The notes below the pieces were generated by a model. It had not been told where the DNA came from, did no database searches, and saw only the letters and a list, made by a program, of their open reading frames with translations. A program made the translations under genes and the position numbers. From NCBI GenBank assembly GCA_013335535.1, contig JAAXVL010000001.1, positions 327,764 through 391,763 of the forward strand: DNA of 64,000 nucleotides. Reading direction: 5' to 3'. This document shows positions 1-59,149 of the stretch, piece by piece. Positions within the stretch are counted from its first letter, which is position 1, and the number at the start of each line of letters is the position of its first letter. This DNA is from Azonexaceae bacterium (GTDB lineage: Bacteria; Pseudomonadota; Gammaproteobacteria; Burkholderiales; Rhodocyclaceae).

Positions 1-332
1 CCCGCTTCGTCGGTAACCACGATGCGCCGGATGCCGAGCTTGGCTGCTTCACGGTAAGCCTGCTGGAATGGCGTGTCGGCCGGCACGCTGTGTATCGGGC
101 TGCTCATCGTGTCGCCGGCCGTTTGGTCTGGCGAGCGGTGCTGGCGCATGACGCGCACAATGTCGCGTTCAGTGATGATGCCGAGAATGGCTCCCTGGTC
201 GACGACGATGACGGACGAGATTTTCGCGTCCAGCATGCGTGACGCCACGTCGCGCAGGCTCATGCCGGGCTCGACGCGATCACTTTGGGTGGAAATTAGC
301 TCGACGATCGTCGTCGCGCGTTTTCTTTTCAT
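1..332 (-). CDS. CBS-domain-pair protein (partial, runs off left edge)
   Basis: Reverse-strand translation from ATG at 332: MKRKRATTIVELISTQSDRVEPGMSLRDVASRMLDAKISSVIVVDQGAILGIITERDIVRVMRQ...; CBS motif; open at window edge. Confidence 0.75.
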   Translation of the reverse strand, partial: MKRKRATTIVELISTQSDRVEPGMSLRDVASRMLDAKISSVIVVDQGAILGIITERDIVRVMRQHRSPDQTAGDTMSSPIHSVPADTPFQQAYREAAKLGIRRIVVTDEA

Positions 333-586: not shown

Positions 587-1675
587 GTGACAGAGACCTT
601 TTACGAAGTGCTGCGCCGCCAGGGCATCACCCGGCGCAGCTTTCTCAAATTCTGCAGCCTGACCGCGACGTCGCTTGGGCTGGGCAGCGCCGCTGCACCG
701 CGCATTGCGCACGCGCTGGAAACCAAGGCGCGCACGCCGGTGATCTGGCTGCACGGGCTGGAATGCACCTGCTGCTCGGAGTCGTTTATTCGTTCGGCGC
801 ACCCGCTGACCAAGGATGTCGTGCTCTCCATGCTTTCCCTCGACTACGACGACACCCTGATGGCCGCCGCCGGCCACCAGGCCGAGGCAATCATCGAAGA
901 GGTCAAGAAGAAGTACAAGGGCAACTACATCGTTGCCGTCGAAGGCAATCCGCCGCTTAACGAGGACGGTATGTTCTGCATCCACGGCGGCCGGCCTTTC
1001 GTCGAAGTGCTCAAGGAAACCTGTGCCGACGCCAAGGCCATCATCAGCTGGGGGGCCTGCGCCTCCTACGGTTGCGTGCAGGCAGCCAAGCCGAACCCGA
1101 CGCGCGCCACGCCGGTGCACAAGGTGATTACCGGCAAGCCGATCATCAATGTGCCGGGCTGCCCGCCGATTGCCGAAGTCATGACCGGCGTCGTCACCTA
1201 CATGCTGACCTTCGACCGCATTCCCGAACTCGACCGCCAAGGACGCCCGAAAATGTTCTACGGTCAGCGCATTCACGACAAGTGCTATCGCCGCGGCCAC
1301 TTCGATGCCGGCCAGTTCGCCGAAGCCTGGGATGACGAAGGGGCGCGCAAGGGCTACTGCCTGTACAAGATGGGCTGCAAGGGGCCGACGACCTACAACG
1401 CCTGTTCCTCGATGCGCTGGAACGGCGGCGTGTCGTGGCCGGTGCAATCGGGCCACGGCTGTATCGGCTGTTCCGAAGAGGGCTTCTGGGACAAGGGCAG
1501 CTTCTATGACCGGGTGACCGACATCAAGGCTTTCGGTGTCGAGTCGAATGCCGACACCATCGGCAAGGCCGCCGCCGGTACGGTCGGCGCCGCGATTGCC
1601 GCCCATGCCGCGGTTTCGGCTCTGGCTCGCGCCCGCACTTCCCACGGTCAACCGGAAAAACAAGAGGAAAACTAA
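587..1675 (+). CDS. hupS: Membrane-bound [NiFe]-hydrogenase small subunit, Tat signal, O2-tolerant-type cysteine pattern
   Basis: RRSFLKF Tat motif; ECTCCSE and [16 protein letters not shown] start at 587 in frame with ORF 527..1675. Confidence 0.93.
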
Positions 1676-1676
1676 A
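1642..1676 (+). repeat. Dispersed 35-bp motif copy 1 (C-terminal codons of hupS)
   Basis: ccacggtcaaccggaaaaacaagaggaaaactaaa; 19-bp core perfect. Confidence 0.8.
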
Positions 1677-1677
1677 A

Positions 1678-5275: not shown

Positions 5276-5730
5276 GCCTCGAACTCAAAGCCGGCCCGAC
5301 CTCGCTCGAAAGACTCGAAACAGCCATCGGCCGATTACTGCAAAAACACGGCTTTTTTCGGGTTGACCGTGGCAACCCCGAATTTCCGGCCGGCCTGACC
5401 GCCCTGCTCCTCACCGAAGACCCGCAGCGCAATCTCGAAGTGCTCGACGCCTGCGTCATCCTGCCCGAAGCGCTCAAGCCGGCTGGCGAGCAGATTGCCC
5501 GCTGGGTGGCTGGCCCTGATTTCGCCGCGCCCCTCATGCAGCAATACGGCGTGCCGCGCGCGCCAGCCGTTGTCTTCCTGCGCGATGGCGCTTTTGTCGG
5601 CGTGCTCAACGGCATTCGCGACTGGAGCGAATACCAGAACGAAGTCGCCCGCCTGCTTACCGGCCCGGCCCAACCCAAGCCGATCGGCATTCCCGTTCGC
5701 GCTGCCGCCACGCAAGGAGCCTGTGCATGA
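5272..5730 (+). CDS. hupG: HyaE/HupG-family thioredoxin-like hydrogenase accessory protein
   Basis: ATG at 5272 overlapping hupF stop; conserved hup order; APAVVFLRDGAFVGVLNGIRDW. Confidence 0.82.
   Translation: MSLELKAGPTSLERLETAIGRLLQKHGFFRVDRGNPEFPAGLTALLLTEDPQRNLEVLDACVILPEALKPAGEQIARWVAGPDFAAPLMQQYGVPRAPAVVFLRDGAFVGVLNGIRDWSEYQNEVARLLTGPAQPKPIGIPVRAAATQGACA
5338..5372 (-). repeat. Dispersed 35-bp motif copy 2 (antisense inside hupG)
   Basis: Reverse complement ccacggtcaacccgaaaaaagccgtgtttttgcag; core with 1 mismatch, distal half degenerate. Confidence 0.6.
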
Positions 5731-9768: not shown

Positions 9769-12054
9769 ATGACCGGCCGCCTGTTCCGCATCCGCGGTCT
9801 GGTACAGGGGGTCGGTTTCCGTCCGTATGTCTGGCGGCTGGCCACCGAACTTGGTCTGACCGGCTGGGTGCGCAACGATGGCGCCGGGGTGATTGCCACG
9901 GTCAACGGGAAAAACTGGCCAGAATTCAAATCCCGCCTGCCGCTCGAAGCACCGCGTCTGGCCCGCATTGACGCCATTGAGGACGAAGCCGCCGAGGTGT
10001 CTGGCGAAGGCTTCGTGATCCTCGACAGTGAATCGGGTGAAATCAAAACCGCCATCGGCCCCGACGCCGCCATCTGTCCCGACTGCATTGCCGACATCTG
10101 CGACCCGGCCAGTCGCCGCTGGCGCTACGCCTTTACCACCTGTACGCACTGCGGGCCGCGCTACACCGTCAGCCGCCGGATTCCCTACGACCGGGCGGCG
10201 ACCAGCCTCGCCGCCTTCCCGCTCTGCCCGCCGTGCGATGCCGAATACCGCGCCCCGGCCGACCGCCGCTTCCACGCCGAAACCACCTGTTGCCCGGCTT
10301 GCGGTCCGCAACTGCGCCTGCTCGACGGCGCCGGTCAGCCGCTGGCCGGTGATCCGATCAGCGAAACCCTGCGCCTGCTGCGTGACGGCAAAATCGTCGC
10401 CATCAAGGGCCTCGGCGGCTTCCATCTCGCCTGCGACGCACGTAACGCGGCCACCGTCGCCGAACTGCGCGAACGCAAGCAGCGCGAGGCCAAGCCTTTC
10501 GCCGTCATGGGCCTGAATGCTGCCTCGCTGGCCGGCCATGCGCAGATTGGCGCCGCTGAGTCCGCGTTGCTGCACAGCGTCGCCGCGCCGGTCGTGCTCT
10601 GCCCCAAGGAGGCCGCCGGCCTGAAAGGTATCGCCCCCGGCCTTGCCTGGCTCGGTGCCATGCTGCCGGCGACGCCGCTCCACCTGCTGCTCTGGCACGA
10701 AGCCGCGGGCCGTCCGAGCGGTACCGACTGGCTGGCCGAGCCGAGTGACCTGCTGCTGGTCATGACCAGCGCCAACCCGCACGGCGAGCCGCTGGTCATT
10801 GCCAACGACGAAGCGTGCGAACGCCTGTCGGGCATCGCCGACGCCTATTTGCTGCATGACCGCGACATCGTCATCCGCTGTGACGATTCGGTCGTCCGCG
10901 CCGGCCCGGCCTTCATCCGGCGCGCCCGTGGCTACGTGCCGGTACCCGTTCCGCTGGCTGACGATGGCCTGACGACGCTGGCGCTGGGCGGCTACCTGAA
11001 GAACACGATCTGCCTCATGAAGGGCCGCGAAGCCTTCCTGTCGCAGCATATTGGCGGGCTCGACAACGCTGCGGCCATCGGCTTTCTCGAAGAAACGGTC
11101 GAGCACCTGCTGGCCATCCTCGATGTCCGGCCTGAGTGCATCGCCCACGACCTCCACCCCGATTTTCCGTCCACGCATCTCGCCGTTCGTCTGGCCGAAA
11201 AGCTTGGCATTCCCGCCATCGCCGTCGGCCATCACCACGCCCACATCGCTGCAATCTGCGCCGAACAGGGCGTCAACGAGCCGATCATCGGCCTGGCCCT
11301 CGATGGCGTCGGCCTTGGCCCGGATGGTGGCGCCTGGGGCGGGGAGTTGCTGCGTCTCGATGGCGCAAACTGCGAGCGCCTCGGCCACCTGAGCCCGCTG
11401 GCCATGCCGGGTGGCGACCGCGCGGCGAAAGAGCCGTGGCGCATGGCGGTTGCTGCTTTGCACGGCGCCGGCTTGGGCTACCGCGTCGGCGGCTGGATCA
11501 AGCAGTACTACCCGACACGCGACCCCGGCCCCCTGCTCACCATGCTCGCCCGCAATCTGCGCTGCCCGCCGACGACCAGCCTCGGCCGCTGGTTCGACGC
11601 TGCGGCCGGCCTGCTCGGCCTGCGCGACCTCATGGATTTCGAGGGGCAGGCGGCGATGGAACTGGAAGGATTGGCCGCCCAATACGGCCCGGTCGAGCCC
11701 CTGCCCGGCGGCTACGCCTTGCGCGAAGACGGCGCGGTCCTCGATTTTTCACCGATGCTGGCGACCCTGATGGGCTGCAAGGACGACGCCGCTCACGGTG
11801 CCGCGCTCTTTCACGCCACCGTCGCGGCCGGCTTGGCCGACTGGGCCATTGCCACGGTCAACCGGAAAAAAGGGCCAAAATTGAAAGGTGAAAAAATCGC
11901 CATTGGCGGCGGTTGTGCGATGAACGCCGTCCTGATGAGTGCACTGCGCCGTTGTTGCAATGCCGCCGGCCTCGAACTGCTCGAAGCCCGACAAGTGCCG
12001 CCCAACGACGGCGGCCTGTCACTCGGCCAGGCCTGGGTGGCCCGGCGGATGTAA
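9769..12054 (+). CDS. hypF: Carbamoyltransferase HypF
   Basis: Acylphosphatase domain GLVQGVGFRPYVWRLA, zinc fingers, YrdC and Kae1-like domains. Confidence 0.96.
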   Translation: MTGRLFRIRGLVQGVGFRPYVWRLATELGLTGWVRNDGAGVIATVNGKNWPEFKSRLPLEAPRLARIDAIEDEAAEVSGEGFVILDSESGEIKTAIGPDAAICPDCIADICDPASRRWRYAFTTCTHCGPRYTVSRRIPYDRAATSLAAFPLCPPCDAEYRAPADRRFHAETTCCPACGPQLRLLDGAGQPLAGDPISETLRLLRDGKIVAIKGLGGFHLACDARNAATVAELRERKQREAKPFAVMGLNAASLAGHAQIGAAESALLHSVAAPVVLCPKEAAGLKGIAPGLAWLGAMLPATPLHLLLWHEAAGRPSGTDWLAEPSDLLLVMTSANPHGEPLVIANDEACERLSGIADAYLLHDRDIVIRCDDSVVRAGPAFIRRARGYVPVPVPLADDGLTTLALGGYLKNTICLMKGREAFLSQHIGGLDNAAAIGFLEETVEHLLAILDVRPECIAHDLHPDFPSTHLAVRLAEKLGIPAIAVGHHHAHIAAICAEQGVNEPIIGLALDGVGLGPDGGAWGGELLRLDGANCERLGHLSPLAMPGGDRAAKEPWRMAVAALHGAGLGYRVGGWIKQYYPTRDPGPLLTMLARNLRCPPTTSLGRWFDAAAGLLGLRDLMDFEGQAAMELEGLAAQYGPVEPLPGGYALREDGAVLDFSPMLATLMGCKDDAAHGAALFHATVAAGLADWAIATVNRKKGPKLKGEKIAIGGGCAMNAVLMSALRRCCNAAGLELLEARQVPPNDGGLSLGQAWVARRM
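9896..9930 (+). repeat. Dispersed 35-bp motif copy 3 (inside hypF)
   Basis: ccacggtcaacgggaaaaactggccagaattcaaa. Confidence 0.85.
11852..11886 (+). repeat. Dispersed 35-bp motif copy 4 (inside hypF)
   Basis: ccacggtcaaccggaaaaaagggccaaaattgaaa. Confidence 0.95.
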
Positions 12055-12107
12055 ATATTCGGGTAGAGGCCAGCCGCCAGGGCTGTTCCATCCCGTCGCC
12101 GAACTTG

Positions 12108-12142
12108 CCACGGTCAACCGGAATATCGGCCCGAAATCGAAA
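12108..12142 (+). repeat. Dispersed 35-bp motif copy 5 (intergenic hypF-hybO)
   Basis: ccacggtcaaccggaatatcggcccgaaatcgaaa. Confidence 0.85.
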
Positions 12143-12267
12143 TGCCCAAGGCGTTCCGCTCTGTCCCAAATATCTACTCCCCAAGTCTGACAAGCGTCTG
12201 ATCACCTGAGCGCTCGAAGTGGAAAGGTGGCGCCCCGTTTTTTGCGGGTCGATTTTTACAAGCAATT

Positions 12268-21758: not shown

Positions 21759-23450
21759 GTGCGAATTCTCCTCATTACACATAGCTTCAACGGCCTGACC
21801 CAGCGCCTTTATTGCGAGCTGGCGACGCTTGGCCACGAAATCAGCATCGAGTTCGACATCGCCGATGCAGTGACCGAAGAGGCTGTGGCCTTGTTCCGGC
21901 CCGATCTGATCATTGCGCCGTTTTTGAAACGGGCGATTCCAGAATCGATCTGGTCGCAGCATTGCTGCCTGATCGTTCATCCCGGCCCGGTCGGCGACCG
22001 TGGTCCGTCGGCGCTCGACTGGGCGATTCAGCTGGGTGTCAAGGAATGGGGTGTCACAGTGTTACAGGCCGAAGCAGAGATGGACGCGGGGCCGGTCTGG
22101 GCGTCGGCGACCTTTCCGATGCGGCCGGCGCGCAAGGCGTCGATCTACCGCAATGAAGTGACCGAGGCGGCCGTTCAGGCGGTGATTGCCACGGTCAACC
22201 GGAAAAATGAGCCAAATTTCAAAGCGGAGCGCGTACCCGGGCAAGCGCATGCGCTGATCAAGCAGGCCGACCGCGTCATCGACTGGCAGACCGAAACCAG
22301 TGCCGCTGTCCTGGCCAAACTCAATGCTGCCGATGGCTTTCCCGGCGTGGCCGACACCTTGTTCGGCCAGCCCTGTCATTTGTTCGACGCCTGGCCGGAA
22401 GCCTCGCTCAAGGGCGAGCCGGGCGCTTTGCTCGGCCGGCGTGAAACGGCCATTTGCCGAGCGACGGCCGATGGTGCGGTGTGGCTCGGCCACGTCAAGC
22501 CAGCGGGCGGCATCAAGCTGCCGGCGACGCAGGCCTGCCCGGAGGCGAACGAGTTGCCCGAGTTGCCGCTAACTGAGGGCTACTGGAAATCGCCGGTTCC
22601 CACCTGGCAGGACATCGCCTACGAGGAGGCCGAATGGAACGGAAATTCGGTCGGTTTCCTGAGTTTCGAGTTTTATAACGGCGCGATGAGCACGGCCCAG
22701 TGCCGACGGCTGACCGAAGCCTTCCGGTGGGCGACGGCGCGACCGACCCGGGTCATCGTGCTGCGTGGCGGCAGCGATTTCTGGTCGAACGGCATCCACC
22801 TCAACACCATCGAGGCCGCGGAGAGCCCGGCCGACGAGTCGTGGGCCAACATCAACGCCATCGACGATCTGGCCGAGGCCATTTTGCGCTGTGAAACGCA
22901 GTTGACCGTGGCGGCCGTAGGCGGCAATGCCGGTGCCGGCGGCTGCTTCCTGGCGCGTGCCGCCGATTTTGTCTGGGCCCGTGACGGCGTGATGCTCAAC
23001 CCGCATTACAAGAACATGGGTAACCTGTACGGTTCGGAATTCTGGACCTACCTGCTGCCTCCGCGCGTCGGCGAAGAGGGTGCGAAGGCCATCATGCGCC
23101 ACCGCCTGCCGATGACGGCGCCGGAAGCAGTGCAACTCGGCTTCTACGATGCCTGCCTGCCCGGTCCGGGGTTTCACGTCGATGTTGCCCGGCGTGCCGC
23201 CGAACTGGCCGCCGCGCCGGATTTCGCTGAAAAGCTCGCCGCCAAGCAGGCCAAACGCCATGCCGACGAAGCCGCCAAGCCGCTGGCCGCCTACCGTGCC
23301 GCGGAATTGACCGAAATGCGCCGCAATTTCTACGGCTTCGACCCCTCGTACCACGTCGCGCGCTATCATTTCGTCTCCCGCTCGGCGCATTCGTGGACGC
23401 CGCGCCACCTTGCCCGCCACCGCGATCTCGACTGGAAAGTTCCGGCATGA
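21759..23450 (+). CDS. hypX: HypX/HoxX (formyltransferase-like plus enoyl-CoA hydratase-like domains)
   Basis: MRILLITHSFNGLTQRLYCEL; HPGPVGDRGPSALDWAI; crotonase-like half. Confidence 0.93.
   Translation: MRILLITHSFNGLTQRLYCELATLGHEISIEFDIADAVTEEAVALFRPDLIIAPFLKRAIPESIWSQHCCLIVHPGPVGDRGPSALDWAIQLGVKEWGVTVLQAEAEMDAGPVWASATFPMRPARKASIYRNEVTEAAVQAVIATVNRKNEPNFKAERVPGQAHALIKQADRVIDWQTETSAAVLAKLNAADGFPGVADTLFGQPCHLFDAWPEASLKGEPGALLGRRETAICRATADGAVWLGHVKPAGGIKLPATQACPEANELPELPLTEGYWKSPVPTWQDIAYEEAEWNGNSVGFLSFEFYNGAMSTAQCRRLTEAFRWATARPTRVIVLRGGSDFWSNGIHLNTIEAAESPADESWANINAIDDLAEAILRCETQLTVAAVGGNAGAGGCFLARAADFVWARDGVMLNPHYKNMGNLYGSEFWTYLLPPRVGEEGAKAIMRHRLPMTAPEAVQLGFYDACLPGPGFHVDVARRAAELAAAPDFAEKLAAKQAKRHADEAAKPLAAYRAAELTEMRRNFYGFDPSYHVARYHFVSRSAHSWTPRHLARHRDLDWKVPA
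22189..22223 (+). repeat. Dispersed 35-bp motif copy 6 (inside hypX)
   Basis: ccacggtcaaccggaaaaatgagccaaatttcaaa. Confidence 0.92.
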
Positions 23451-25944: not shown

Positions 25945-27359
25945 GCCGGATTGTCGTCGGGCCGTTCAATCGCGTCGAAGGCGATCTTGAAGTGACACTC
26001 GAACTCGACGCTGGCCGCATCGCGTCGGCCCAGGTCAATTCACCGCTGTTCAGAGGCTTCGAGCAGACTCTGGTGGGCCGCGCCCCGCTCGACGCCCTGG
26101 CCATCGTGCCGCGTATCTGCGGCATCTGCTCGGTTGCCCAGTCGGCGGCCGCCGCTGAGGCGCTAGCCGGGGCGATGGGCATCGTTCCCACGGTCAACGG
26201 GAAAATATCGCGAAAATTGATAACTGCGACCGAGAACCTGGCCGATCACCTGACGCACTTTTACCTCTTTTTCATGCCCGACTTCGCCCGCCCGGCCTAT
26301 GCCGGACGTGCCTGGCACGAGTCTGCGGTGCGCCGTTTTACAGCGGTCAAAGGCGATGCCGCCGCCGAGGTTCTGCCGGCCCGCGCCGGTTTTCTCCGGC
26401 TCATGGGTTTTCTCGCCGGCCGCTGGCCGCACACGCTGGCCATCCAGCCCGGCGGCAGCACGCGGGCGATCACCGCCGGCGAACGTATCCGCCTGCTGGC
26501 ACAGTTGCGCGAATTCCGCAGCTTTCTCGAAAAACGGCTGTTCGGCGACGCCCTGGCCAGCGTCGCTCAACTGGCCAGCAAGGAAGCCTTGCTGGCCTGG
26601 TCCGATGGACGCCTTGGCGATTTCCCCGCCTTTCTGAGCGCAGCGACCGATCTCGGTCTGGACAAGACGGGGGGTGCCTACGATGCCTTCCTGTCTTATG
26701 GTGCCTACGACCTGTTTCCGGCCGGCACCTGGCAAGCCGGGCAGGCCGCCGTCTTCGATCCGGTCGCCATCGATGAAGATACGTCCAGCGCCTGGCTGGT
26801 ATCCGGGCAGCCGCGCCATCCGGCGCAGGGTGAAACGGTCGTCGACGCCAACAAGCCCGACGCCTACACCTGGTGCAAGGCGCCGCGCTACGCCGGCCAG
26901 CCCTTTGAGGTCGGCGCCCTGGCCCGCCAGATCATTGCCTGTCATCCGTTGGCGCTCGACCTCGTGCAGCGCGACGGCGCCAGCGTCATGGCCCGTGTCG
27001 TCGCCCGCCTGCTTGAACTGGCCCTCGTCCTGCCGGCCATGGAAGCCTGGGTCCAGGCGCTGCAGCCCGGTGAGCCGTTCTGCGCCCATGGCACCATGCC
27101 CGACGACGCCACTGGCTCTGGTTTGGTCGAAGCCGCCCGCGGCAGCCTCGGCCACTGGCTGAGCATCAAACGCGGCCGCATCGAGCGCTATCAGATCATT
27201 GCCCCGACCACGTGGAACTTCTCGCCACGCGATGCCTCCAATCAGCCCGGCCCGCTCGAGAAGGCGCTTGTCGGCTTGCCCGCCGGCGAGGGCGCGCCAC
27301 CAACCGTTCAGCACGTCGTGCGCTCGTTCGATCCGTGCATGGTGTGTACCGTGCATTAG
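25941..27359 (+). CDS. hoxC: Regulatory (H2-sensing) hydrogenase large subunit
   Basis: GTG start; RICGICSVAQS; ends exactly at DPCMVCTVH* with no C-terminal extension. Confidence 0.94.
   Translation: MSRIVVGPFNRVEGDLEVTLELDAGRIASAQVNSPLFRGFEQTLVGRAPLDALAIVPRICGICSVAQSAAAAEALAGAMGIVPTVNGKISRKLITATENLADHLTHFYLFFMPDFARPAYAGRAWHESAVRRFTAVKGDAAAEVLPARAGFLRLMGFLAGRWPHTLAIQPGGSTRAITAGERIRLLAQLREFRSFLEKRLFGDALASVAQLASKEALLAWSDGRLGDFPAFLSAATDLGLDKTGGAYDAFLSYGAYDLFPAGTWQAGQAAVFDPVAIDEDTSSAWLVSGQPRHPAQGETVVDANKPDAYTWCKAPRYAGQPFEVGALARQIIACHPLALDLVQRDGASVMARVVARLLELALVLPAMEAWVQALQPGEPFCAHGTMPDDATGSGLVEAARGSLGHWLSIKRGRIERYQIIAPTTWNFSPRDASNQPGPLEKALVGLPAGEGAPPTVQHVVRSFDPCMVCTVH
26188..26222 (+). repeat. 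Dispersed 35-bp motif copy 7 (inside hoxC)
   Basis: ccacggtcaacgggaaaatatcgcgaaaattgata. Confidence 0.75.
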
Positions 27360-31381: not shown

Positions 31382-31406
31382 GCAAAGCGGCCGGCGGGTT
31401 GTGAGA

Positions 31407-31441
31407 TTTCAAATTCAGGCGTTTTTTCCGGTTGACCGTGG
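31407..31441 (-). repeat. Dispersed 35-bp motif copy 8 (left arm of inverted pair)
   Basis: Reverse complement ccacggtcaaccggaaaaaacgcctgaatttgaaa. Confidence 0.95.
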
Positions 31442-31445
31442 CATG

Positions 31446-31480
31446 CCACGGTCAACCGGAAAAAACGGCCAAAATTGAAA
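31446..31480 (+). repeat. Dispersed 35-bp motif copy 9 (right arm of inverted pair)
   Basis: ccacggtcaaccggaaaaaacggccaaaattgaaa; 4-nt spacer to copy 8. Confidence 0.97.
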
Positions 31481-31537
31481 ATCCAGCCCATGCATTTGGT
31501 ATGCTTTGCCGCTAGTCCGGCCTGATACGCGCAACGC

Positions 31538-34834: not shown

Positions 34835-34995
34835 GATGACTTCCTCCATGCGCTTTTAGACCGGTTAACGGATCCAGCGTGCTACGGCTTTAGTCAAGCA
34901 TATCCTGTTCCCGGTTTCGTCGACATGAACGCGAAGAAGCGCCGAATCGCTTGCCGGAAGGGGTTTGGCAGGTTTATCGATGACGCCGGAGGGGC

Positions 34996-35030
34996 TTTCG
35001 ATTTTGTCGGCTTTTTCCGGTTGACCGTGG
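34996..35030 (-). repeat. Dispersed 35-bp motif copy 10 (intergenic)
   Basis: Reverse complement ccacggtcaaccggaaaaagccgacaaaatcgaaa. Confidence 0.92.
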
Positions 35031-35063
35031 AAATCCGACAATTTGTGCTCCTGTTTGGCGCGT

Positions 35064-37390: not shown

Positions 37391-38711
37391 CCTGGCGGAC
37401 AGCTCGCCCCTGCCGCCCGGCGGCGAGCAGGCGTGGATCGAAGTCATCCAGAAAATGGACGAGGTCTATAACGACCTCCTGCAGTACGAAGTCGCCCTCG
37501 AAGAAAAGAACGCCGCACTCGAGGAATCGCACCAGTTCATCGAGAGCGTGCTCACCTCGATGTCCGACATCCTCATCGTCTGCGACCGCAACGGGGGGAT
37601 CGTCGAGGTCAATTCCTCGCTCCTGCATTTCTCCGGCAAGACGGCCGACGAACTTGAAAAGACAGCGGTCTTCGAGCTTTTTGCCGACGAGGTCGAAAAG
37701 GCCAAGGCGCGCGATATCTTCGCCCGTTTCGGCCGCGAAGGGATTCATGACTGCGAGTTTTTCCTGCGCGCCGGCGACGGTTCGACCGTGCCGGTGTCGA
37801 TGAACTGCACGCCGCGTCTGTCGCAGACTGGCAAACTCATGGGCATGGTCGTTACCGGCCGCCCGGTCGGCGAACTGCGCAAGGCCTACTCCGCGCTACG
37901 GCAGGCGCACGACGATCTTAAACGCACGCAAGGCCAACTCCTGCACGCCGAAAAGATGGTCTCGCTCGGCCGTCTGGTGGCCGGCGTGGCGCATGAACTC
38001 AACAACCCGATCAGCTTCGTGCTCGGCAACGTGCTCTCGCTCAAGCGCTACGCCAGCCGGCTCGAAAGCTATCTCAGCGCCGTGCACGCCAGCGATGCGG
38101 CAGACGATGCGGCGCTCAAGGCCATGCGCGACGAATTGCGCATTGACCGCATCCTGGCCGACATGCCGCACCTCATCGACGGCATGATCGAAGGCGCCGA
38201 GCGGACGCGCGATATCGTCGATGCGCTCAAGCGTTTTTCGGCCGTCGACAAGATGACGCCCGAGCAGGTCAGCCTCAACGAGGTCGTCGAGCGCTCGGTG
38301 CGCTGGGTCGTGCAGAGCGCAGCGGCCAAATTCACGGTCAACACGAATTTATCGCCAAATTTGAAATGTTCAGGGTCGTCCGGGCAGTTGCAGCAGGTCG
38401 TCATGAACCTCGTGCAGAACGCCTGCGACGCTACGGCTAGCCTGCCTGAGCCGAAGCTGAACATCACCGGCGACATCGAGGGAGGCATGGCCGTGCTGCG
38501 CTTTACCGACAACGGCCCGGGCATTCCCGAGGCCAACCTGAGCCGCCTGTTCGAGCCCTTCTTTACGACCAAACCGGTCGGCCAGGGTACCGGGCTGGGC
38601 TTGTCGATCAGCTACGGCATCGTCGAGCGGCACGGCGGTAAGCTCAGTGCGCGCAACGTGCCGGGCAATGGGGCGGAATTCGTTCTTTCACTTCCGGTGG
38701 AAGGTCGCTAA
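37365..38711 (+). CDS. hoxJ: PAS sensor histidine kinase HoxJ/HupT
   Basis: EVIQKMDEVYNDLLQYEVALEEKNAALEESHQFI; LVAGVAHELNNPISFVLGN; ATG overlaps nikR by 26 nt. Confidence 0.88.
   Translation: MSTTVPPADLADSSPLPPGGEQAWIEVIQKMDEVYNDLLQYEVALEEKNAALEESHQFIESVLTSMSDILIVCDRNGGIVEVNSSLLHFSGKTADELEKTAVFELFADEVEKAKARDIFARFGREGIHDCEFFLRAGDGSTVPVSMNCTPRLSQTGKLMGMVVTGRPVGELRKAYSALRQAHDDLKRTQGQLLHAEKMVSLGRLVAGVAHELNNPISFVLGNVLSLKRYASRLESYLSAVHASDAADDAALKAMRDELRIDRILADMPHLIDGMIEGAERTRDIVDALKRFSAVDKMTPEQVSLNEVVERSVRWVVQSAAAKFTVNTNLSPNLKCSGSSGQLQQVVMNLVQNACDATASLPEPKLNITGDIEGGMAVLRFTDNGPGIPEANLSRLFEPFFTTKPVGQGTGLGLSISYGIVERHGGKLSARNVPGNGAEFVLSLPVEGR
38332..38366 (+). repeat. Dispersed 35-bp motif copy 11 (degenerate, inside hoxJ)
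   Basis: tcacggtcaacacgaatttatcgccaaatttgaaa. Confidence 0.6.
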
Positions 38712-44107: not shown

Positions 44108-44144
44108 AAAAAGGCGCGGGAGGGAAACCTCTCCGCGCCTTTTT
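44108..44144 (+). terminator. Intrinsic terminator after maeB
   Basis: aaaaaggcgcgg...ccgcgccttttt, 12-bp arms including A/T tails. Confidence 0.85.
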
Positions 44145-44176
44145 CATTTTTGGCCGATTTTCCCGGTTGACCGTGG
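44142..44176 (-). repeat. Dispersed 35-bp motif copy 12 (abuts maeB terminator)
   Basis: Reverse complement ccacggtcaaccgggaaaatcggccaaaaatgaaa. Confidence 0.92.
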
Positions 44177-44197
44177 AAATACGGTTTAACCGGTGGC

Positions 44198-53195: not shown

Positions 53196-53895
53196 CTTTC
53201 AGACCAAGTGCCGACCAATGGCCGGTAACCAGCACGGCATCGGCGCTTTTACGGTTCGGCAGGTCGAACCAGGGCACGTGACCGGCCGGGGCGTTGGAAA
53301 GCTTGCCCTTGACCTTGAACTCCATGACCCCATCCAGCGTGCAGAAGCGCATCCGCGTCATGGCATTGACGATGACGCGCAGGCGCGGCCAGCCGCTCAA
53401 CGTGTCTGACCAGCCAGCTGGTTCACTGCCCCACAGGTTGAGCACGAATTCGCGGAAATTGGGCCCTTGCAACGCGGCTTCAACCTCGCGGGACAGCTCG
53501 CGGGCGCGGGCAGCCGTCCATTGCGGCAGCAGGCCGGCATGGACGAGGCAGTACTCGCCCTCGGTATGGCAGATCGGCTGATGGCGTAGCCAGTCGAGCA
53601 GTTCATCACAGTCCGGAGCGTCGAGAATTGGCTGCAAGGTGTCGTCCTTGCCGCGAAACTTGGCGCCGCCTTCGGCGACCATGAGCAGGTAGAGGTCGTG
53701 GTTGCCGAGCACGGTGATGGCAGCCGGCCCTAGCGACTTGATCAGGCGCAGCGTTTCGAGTGAATGCGGACCGCGATTGACCAGGTCGCCAACCAGCCAC
53801 AGACGGTCGTTGGCCGGGTCGAAGGCGCAACGCTCGAGTAGCCGCTGGAGCGAGTCGTAGCAGCCCTGGATATCGCCGATGGCGTAAGTGCTCAT
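53065..53895 (-). CDS. apaH: Symmetrical diadenosine tetraphosphatase
   Basis: MSTYAIGDIQGCYDSLQRLLE; GNHDLYLL. Confidence 0.95.
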   Translation of the reverse strand: MSTYAIGDIQGCYDSLQRLLERCAFDPANDRLWLVGDLVNRGPHSLETLRLIKSLGPAAITVLGNHDLYLLMVAEGGAKFRGKDDTLQPILDAPDCDELLDWLRHQPICHTEGEYCLVHAGLLPQWTAARARELSREVEAALQGPNFREFVLNLWGSEPAGWSDTLSGWPRLRVIVNAMTRMRFCTLDGVMEFKVKGKLSNAPAGHVPWFDLPNRKSADAVLVTGHWSALGLKVTPNLLALDSGCLWGGHLTAVRLEDRQVFQVDCSPTEAQPLKR

Positions 53896-53897
53896 TG

Positions 53898-53932
53898 CCA
53901 CGGTCAACCGGAAAAATTGGTCAAAATTGAAA
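53898..53932 (+). repeat. Dispersed 35-bp motif copy 13 (2 bp upstream of apaH start)
   Basis: ccacggtcaaccggaaaaattggtcaaaattgaaa. Confidence 0.95.
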
Positions 53933-53939
53933 TGTCCGC

Positions 53940-57890: not shown

Positions 57891-59149
57891 TGGCGCGTTT
57901 CTTCTATTCAGAGCTGCTTTATCTGATCACGCCGCTGATCTGGCTTCGTCTGCTCTGGCGCAGCCGCAAGCAGCCGGAATATCTCCAGCACCTCGGCGAG
58001 CGCTACGGCTTCTATCGCCAGCCGGCGCCGGCCAAGCTGATCTGGGTGCATGCCGTCTCGGTCGGTGAAACCCGCGCTGCCCAACCGCTCATCGAAGGCT
58101 TGCAGGCGCGCTGGCCGGAACATTGCATCCTGCTCACCGGCATGACGCCGACCGGTCGCGATGCCGGGCAGCAGGTCTATGGCGACAAGCTGATTCAGGC
58201 CTATTTACCCTACGATTACCCCGGCGCGGTCGATCGGTTCTTCCGCCATTTTTCGCCAGCTTTCGGTGTGCTCATGGAAACGGAGATATGGCCCAATCTG
58301 TTGGCCGCCGGGAAGCGCCGCAAGGTGCCGATCTTTCTCGCCAACGCGCGGCTTTCGGCACGTTCGGCCCGCGGCTACCGGCGGTTCTCGGCCTTGGCCG
58401 GCCCGGCGTTTTCGGCACTGGCCGGTGTCGCGGCACAAACGGCGGGTGATGCCGAGCGGATCGCCGAATTGGGCGCGACTCCGGTTGAGGTTTGCGGCAA
58501 CCTGAAATTCGATGTCACCCCGCCTGCCGACAAGCTTGCCCTCGGCCGCGAATGGCGGGTGGCGATTGGCCGGCGTCCGGTCTGGCTCGCCGCCAGCACG
58601 CGTGAAGGCGAGGAACCACTGGTCCTCGAGGCATTCCGCAAGGCGGCCGTTGCTGATGCCTTGCTCGTTCTGGTACCGCGTCATCCGCAGCGCTTCGATG
58701 AAGTGGCCGATTTGCTCCAGCAGCAGGGGCTGCGCACAGTCCGGCGCAGTGCGGCCTTGCCGATGGCTGATACCGAGGTTTGGCTCGGCGACAGCATGGG
58801 TGAGATGGCAGCCTATTTCACGCTGGCCGATCTGGCTTTCATTGGCGGCAGCTTGCTGCCGCTCGGCGGGCAGAATCTGATCGAGGCGGCGGCCTGCGAC
58901 TGTCCGGTCGTTGTCGGGCCACACACCTTCAATTTCAAGCAGGCGACCGAGGATGCGATTGCCGCGGGCGCCGCTTTGCGCGTCGTCAACCCGGAAATGC
59001 TCGCTTCCACGGTCAACCGGATTTTTGGCCAAAAAATGAAATTGGTGGAAATGCGAACAGCGGCGGGAACGTTCGCCCGCGCCCATCAGGGTGCGGCTGA
59101 GCGGATGCTGGGGCTTATAGTGCGCTGGATGGGTCGAGCAGGGCGTTGA
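57890..59149 (+). CDS. waaA: 3-deoxy-D-manno-octulosonic acid transferase
   Basis: LIWVHAVSVGETRAAQPLIE; FIGGSLLPLGGQNLIEAAA. Confidence 0.95.
   Translation: MARFFYSELLYLITPLIWLRLLWRSRKQPEYLQHLGERYGFYRQPAPAKLIWVHAVSVGETRAAQPLIEGLQARWPEHCILLTGMTPTGRDAGQQVYGDKLIQAYLPYDYPGAVDRFFRHFSPAFGVLMETEIWPNLLAAGKRRKVPIFLANARLSARSARGYRRFSALAGPAFSALAGVAAQTAGDAERIAELGATPVEVCGNLKFDVTPPADKLALGREWRVAIGRRPVWLAASTREGEEPLVLEAFRKAAVADALLVLVPRHPQRFDEVADLLQQQGLRTVRRSAALPMADTEVWLGDSMGEMAAYFTLADLAFIGGSLLPLGGQNLIEAAACDCPVVVGPHTFNFKQATEDAIAAGAALRVVNPEMLASTVNRIFGQKMKLVEMRTAAGTFARAHQGAAERMLGLIVRWMGRAGR
59007..59041 (+). repeat. Dispersed 35-bp motif copy 14 (inside waaA)
   Basis: ccacggtcaaccggatttttggccaaaaaatgaaa. Confidence 0.85.

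Follow-up and report, generated by a model that had tools for sequence, protein, structure and literature searches.

A dispersed sequence motif of Azonexus/Dechloromonas with the build of a DNA uptake signal sequence

The motif and its copies in the window

The analysed stretch of DNA (64 kb, referred to as the window) contains a conspicuous motif at positions 31446-31480, with the sequence CCACGGTCAACCGGAAAAAACGGCCAAAATTGAAA. In agreement with a preliminary description, direct reading of the sequence revealed a core, an A-tract at approximately motif positions 15-20 and a second A/T segment at 26-35. The 14-bp core CCACGGTCAACCGG has 10 exact matches in the window. When up to two mismatches were allowed, 17 sites were counted versus 0.78 expected, and this number was reached in none of 100 shuffled sequences. 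Copies in open reading frames as well as in intergenic regions are listed in Table 1. The preliminary description had not noticed that the copy at 31446 is part of an inverted pair, that an upstream T is conserved, that a degenerate copy is present at 38332 and that relatives carry variant spellings. Apart from the motif, positions 1-27500 of the window harbour dispersed direct repeats of 57-250 nt (61-77% identity) between the regions at 1.7-3.4 kb, 15.8-17.5 kb and 25.9 kb. This suggests paralogous gene sets, which probably encode hydrogenases (the gene names are putative).

Table 1. Copies of the motif in the 64-kb window
Feature	Position	Strand	Remarks
Copy at the 3' end of ORF 527-1675	1638..1677	+	Exact core at 1642
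Copy with one core mismatch	5337..5376	-	Ortholog in G332/G340 revealed the dialect TACGGTCGGC
Copy with one mismatch within ORF 9769-12054	9892..9931	+	Encodes IATVNGKNWPEF; from core scan
Copy within ORF 9769-12054	11848..11887	+	Exact core; orthologs aligned
Intergenic copy	12104..12143	+	Exact core
Coding copy	22185..22224	+	Exact core
Coding copy with one mismatch	26184..26223	+	From core scan
Second arm of the inverted pair, with its core at 31428-31441	31406..31444	-	Exact core; 37-bp arms 89% complementary
Full motif copy (reported), arm of the inverted pair	31443..31481	+	Exact 14-bp core, A-tract and tail; extent from profile
Copy within an ORF	34995..35034	-	Exact core
Degenerate copy with three core mismatches	38328..38367	+	A/T tail intact; repeat family D1
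Intergenic copy	44141..44180	-	Exact core
Probably intergenic copy, located beyond the longest ORFs or at their margin	53894..53933	+	Exact core
Coding copy	59003..59042	+	Exact core; first A/T segment is a T-tract variant

Abundance and architecture in the source genome

The source genome comprises 4.25 Mb on 72 contigs, the largest of which (C1, 1.05 Mb) was analysed in full. Genome-wide, CCACGGTCAACCGG is present in 375 exact copies, 187 on the plus and 188 on the minus strand, versus none of the reversed control sequence. On C1, no 10-mer is more frequent than CACGGTCAAC, the 10-bp centre of this sequence, with 183 copies compared to a mean of 2.7 for permuted 10-mers; the 30 single-mismatch neighbours add up to approximately 181 copies, about the number of the perfect ones. 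The motif occurs once per 5.7 kb on C1 and is spread along the whole contig without clustering. Low-GC bins of this contig (approximately 60 kb in total) contain one copy versus 10.5 expected. The main low-GC stretch (G000:C1:908000-975000, 52-56% GC), which is nearly free of the motif, harbours a chemotaxis and flagellar gene cluster, and therefore the depletion does not by itself point to foreign DNA. We dropped it as an indication of this kind and kept in this respect only the insert in comEC described below.

A profile of 85 copies defined an element of approximately 39 bp with the composition T[T][GT]CCACGGTCAACCGG-AAAAA-nGGCC-AAAATT-GAAAT. Counted from the C of CACGGTCAAC, the A/T segments are located at +13..18 and +24..29 (plus +31..34). 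Their centres are 11 bp apart, which bears out the earlier reading that they are spaced by roughly one helical turn. The upstream T of TT[G/T]CCACGG is conserved in 89% of the copies, the information content stops at +34, and there is no conservation outside the 39 bp. According to a simple gene-calling script, 39 of the 85 copies are intergenic, while approximately 7.1% would be expected there; another 39 are inside genes. The copies inside genes are also in excess: 40 were counted in 440 kb of coding DNA versus 3.1 under synonymous-codon shuffling (13-fold; maximum of 7 in 100 shuffles), and they encode several unrelated peptides in four frames. Chance and codon usage are rejected as the source of the motif abundance.

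Orientation and inverted pairs

The copies on C1 show a ratio of 106:77 between the strands (P 0.04), and 93 of 182 neighbouring copies lie on the same strand, which is at chance level. Taken with the genome-wide balance, this means that the strand skew proposed earlier as a check reveals no marked orientation bias of the replichore type. In the related genome G283, two spellings of the motif, TGCGGTCAAC and CACGGTCAAC, show opposite strand leanings within the same 400 kb.

The reported copy at 31446(+) is paired head-to-head with the copy at 31428-31441(-). Three inverted pairs exist in the 1.05 Mb of C1, all of them head-to-head and with 16-17-bp spacing. Their number is near chance; it is the geometry alone that is non-random. 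The pair at 31428(-)/31446(+) folds into a strong hairpin (-58.7 kcal/mol, z -9.95). Despite this, a role as intrinsic terminator is not supported, because the stem core is followed by an A-run instead of a U-run and the terminator scan of the pair yielded a weak site on the minus strand only.

Origin of the copies

Alignments of orthologous sites revealed how individual copies have arisen. At site 9896, which is inside an ORF, all carriers of the CACGGTCAAC spelling align without gaps and carriers of other spellings show their own version of the motif, while motif-free species have unrelated codons at this place, some of them with a one-base gap pair. At site 5359, the orthologs are ungapped or contain single-base gaps and differ by substitutions; in the species with the spelling TACGGTCGGC, the alignment contains an 18-nt insertion. 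The copy at 1638-1677 has kept its full core in five carrier species, whereas substitutions and 1-nt indels distinguish its tails. The orthologs of site 11852 are less clear-cut because this stretch is prone to indels, site 12108 has no aligned ortholog and site 22189 has only two. Two sites are thus clear-cut, and the others are gapped, rich in indels or covered by few orthologs. The well-aligned sites show an origin of the copies by base substitution in place and not by insertion. The same mode of origin was reported for the uptake signal sequences (USS) of Pasteurellaceae (PMC1626085).

Taxonomic range and dialects

We screened 299 genomes representing 68 genera of the family. Only the genus of the window shows an enrichment of the 14-mer, and the same holds true for the sequence TGCGGTCRAC; neither is enriched in the other 67 genera. 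Based on the titles of matches to a protein encoded in the window, this genus is Azonexus/Dechloromonas. Counting of CACGGTCAACCG in 77 species of the genus yielded 436 copies in the source genome, 337, 328, 292, 253, 224, 176, 140, 131 and 130 copies in further carriers, and numbers near chance in most species. In other species of the genus, TGCGGTCRAC is abundant instead (1630, 1297, 1269, 1154 and 924 copies), and the motif density reaches up to approximately one per 2.3 kb (in G341).

Thus the genus harbours several dialects of the motif, namely CACGGTCAAC, TGCGGTCAAC, TGCGGTCGAC, CACGGTCGAC and TACGGTCGGC. The last was first read at orthologous sites in three seeming non-carriers and then found genome-wide in the same three genomes, with 248, 143 and 225 copies versus approximately 4-27 in others. 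Counting of k-mers uncovered CACGGTCGAC in G148 and showed TGCGGTCAAC to be the predominant form in G283. The inner core CGGTC is invariant across the dialects, and most of them have retained an A/T segment 3' of the core with comparable spacing. The dialects cluster on a partly resolved protein tree, where they require 7 changes compared to a mean of 15.8 after shuffling, and none of 200 shuffles gave a value as low. Many species of the genus carry no motif, while close species differ in the whole spelling. In 140 kb of the genome G112 no enriched motif was found. In 120 kb of G223 a sequence of the AGAACCAGAACC type occurs more than 30 times; it probably represents a tandem repeat that has no relation to the motif.

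Comparison with known uptake sequences

For comparison we used the list of hallmarks of USS and of the neisserial DNA uptake sequences (DUS) given in PMC1626085. The testable sequence hallmarks were found in the Azonexus motif, with two exceptions: its density stays below approximately one copy per kb, and inverted pairs are about as frequent as expected by chance. This supports, by inference, the earlier proposal of a USS-like uptake signal. In the USS, two A/T segments approximately one helical turn apart lie 3' of a core, and perfect copies of uptake sequences are at least as numerous as single-mismatch copies, unlike those of most intracellular protein sites (PMC1626085). In Haemophilus influenzae, uptake depends critically on the central GCGG, with a contribution of the A/T tracts that is probably exerted via DNA shape and kinking (PMC7811141).

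The Azonexus motif shares with the Pasteurellaceae USS (Hin-USS AAGTGCGGT, Apl-USS ACAAGCGGT) the strong short core with two phased A/T segments 3' of it, the lack of strand bias, the origin in place, the dialects in subclades and the preference for intergenic regions. It differs by its host class (Azonexus belongs to the Beta-, the Pasteurellaceae to the Gammaproteobacteria), by a longer core which runs on into ACCGG, by A/T segments beginning approximately 5 bp farther from the core and by an approximately five-fold lower density; moreover, its role in uptake is inferred from sequence. The preliminary description had seen no match of the core to either the USS or the DUS. This holds for the source genome, the dialect of which has ACGGT where the USS has GCGGT, so that CACGGTCAAC is not a USS by its core sequence. 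It does not hold fully for sister species: their dialects contain TGCGGTC, although not the 9-mers AAGTGCGGT or ACAAGCGGT, and the sequence TGCGGTCAA found there includes the Pasteurellaceae inner core GCGGT. These nine bases are common to the TGCGGTCAACCGG dialect and to the extended Hin-USS (eHin-USS), AAAGTGCGGTCAATTTT (PMC12616744). The TGCGGTCAAC dialect has TGCGGTCAA in common with eHin-USS and GCGGTCAA with eApl-USS.

In Neisseriaceae, AT-DUS and seven other dialects are known, with ComP as receptor (PMC3630211). Like the DUS, the Azonexus motif is betaproteobacterial and has many dialects distributed on the phylogeny, an invariant inner core and inverted pairs. However, its core is unrelated, and the CTG of the DUS core (GCCGTCTGAA and dialects) is absent from the invariant CGGTC. 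Furthermore, DUS lack conserved flanking A/T segments and are far denser, and the inverted pair at 31428(-)/31446(+) has no U-tail. In literature searches from which most subscription journals were absent, we found no link between uptake sequences and Rhodocyclales, Rhodocyclaceae or Dechloromonas, and no mention of the string CCACGGTCAACC. A literature search for transformation in Dechloromonas yielded nothing relevant.

Competence genes and the insertion in comEC

The competence machinery and a ComP-like minor pilin had been named earlier as points to be checked. The source genome contains dprA and comEA, a fimT-type GspH minor pilin, one pilin above the cut-off of the Pfam ComP_DUS family, and comEC. 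The latter gene is split in its conserved LMSISGLH region by a 33.7-kb integrative element (G000:C33:109612-143330, GC 51.5%). A large serine recombinase adjoins the junction, and the element also encodes a tyrosine integrase, a PF03175 DNA polymerase B, an IMS-type DNA polymerase, SRAP, a D5/VapE-type primase-helicase, and CHAT, DUF4917/SIR2-like and CoiA_N-domain proteins. It contains no copy of the motif, while 5.9 would be expected (P 0.003). The insertion looks recent, since each half of comEC has kept long open frames and can be aligned at 79-80% to its G283 counterpart, and since the GC content of the insert is 51.5%. Because comEC is interrupted, transformation is probably blocked at present in the source lineage with the motif set still intact, and the current use of an uptake sequence by the source strain is doubtful.

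In the genus, a ComEC domain above the cut-off was detected in 72 of 77 genomes and in all 52 of the more complete ones. The match covers nearly the full domain in most relatives, and mostly so in those sharing the CACGGTCAAC dialect. In G345 the match is split in a similar way and at an identical position, and truncated, split or late-starting matches were seen in G202, G361, G362, G340, G336, G305, G315, G295 and G348. Thus interruptions may have hit comEC repeatedly in the genus; some of the cases may stem from contig ends or frameshifts.

The ComP-like pilin encoded beside fimT was considered as the receptor setting the dialect. The ComP-like/FimT pilin cluster is close in G338 and G339 but distant in G307, G312, G313 and G350, which have the same dialect, and pilins of motif-free species also match the ComP_DUS family. 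Since the similarity does not follow the dialect and the pilin is present in non-carriers, its role as the receptor is not supported.

Proposed function and alternative explanations

We propose that the motif is very probably a DNA uptake signal sequence of Azonexus/Dechloromonas, belonging to an unreported family with a USS-like build. In free double-stranded DNA, the GC-rich core would be bound by a surface receptor linked to type IV pili. The phased A/T segments on its 3' side would represent bendable or narrow-groove DNA, which could let the bound DNA kink into the secretin and then be drawn in by ComEA and ComEC. If uptake and recombination favoured fragments with a good copy, copies born by point mutation would spread through the genome by this biased transformation, a form of molecular drive. 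Each lineage would retain its own spelling because its receptor would prefer it. It is also possible, though we rather doubt it, that the motif is a vestigial uptake sequence in a source lineage which has since lost competence; this is a sub-case of the uptake reading and does not exclude it. The interruption of comEC fits such a loss, but the insertion looks recent, the motif copies are undecayed and most relatives with the same dialect have a near-full-length comEC.

A polar motif of the KOPS or Chi type, read by FtsK or RecBCD, would be abundant and could show the weak excess on one strand of C1. Known KOPS and Chi sequences are far shorter than 39 bp. The genome-wide strand balance and the chance-level orientation of neighbours led us to reject polarity, and the opposite leanings of the two spellings in G283 are also at odds with it; in the absence of polarity this explanation is largely refuted and we regard it as extremely improbable. 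It is very unlikely, too, that the motif has spread by insertion as a selfish or REP-like mini-element. High identity of the copies, the inverted pairs and the 18-nt insertion in the TACGGTCGGC ortholog of site 5359 would be in line with such an element. However, the other orthologs at 9896 and 5359 differ by substitutions without gaps or with single-base gaps only, coding copies carry the dialect of the resident genome, and conservation ends with the 39 bp, so that insertion of a mobile repeat was rejected at the well-aligned sites. The strong, fixed consensus and the phased A-tracts could also be used by a nucleoid, segregation or repair protein with a dispersed binding site (similar to parS, matS or NBS). 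Against this, the copies are distributed over the whole of C1 instead of being clustered, the motif is asymmetric, close species differ by a wholesale change of spelling and many species have none, and the perfect copies equal all single-mismatch copies in number, in contrast to most intracellular protein sites (PMC1626085). We consider a binding site of this kind unlikely.

Significance

In the literature on uptake sequences that we consulted, tags are described for Pasteurellaceae and Neisseriaceae only. We see an even chance that environmental Betaproteobacteria possess a third uptake-sequence family, which comprises at least five dialects, and that its TGCGGTCAA core with phased A/T segments reflects either deep common ancestry with the Pasteurellaceae USS or a striking convergence on it, in which case USS recognition would have a greater age or evolve more readily than has been assumed. 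If the uptake function is true, Azonexus would offer a dialect-rich, independent replicate for studying the evolution of uptake bias and the spread of tags in free-living environmental bacteria. Natural transformation, so far unreported in this genus, would be predicted, and the motif could serve as a practical transformation tag for genetic work. Last, it would mark genetic boundaries between self and non-self among the species of the genus.
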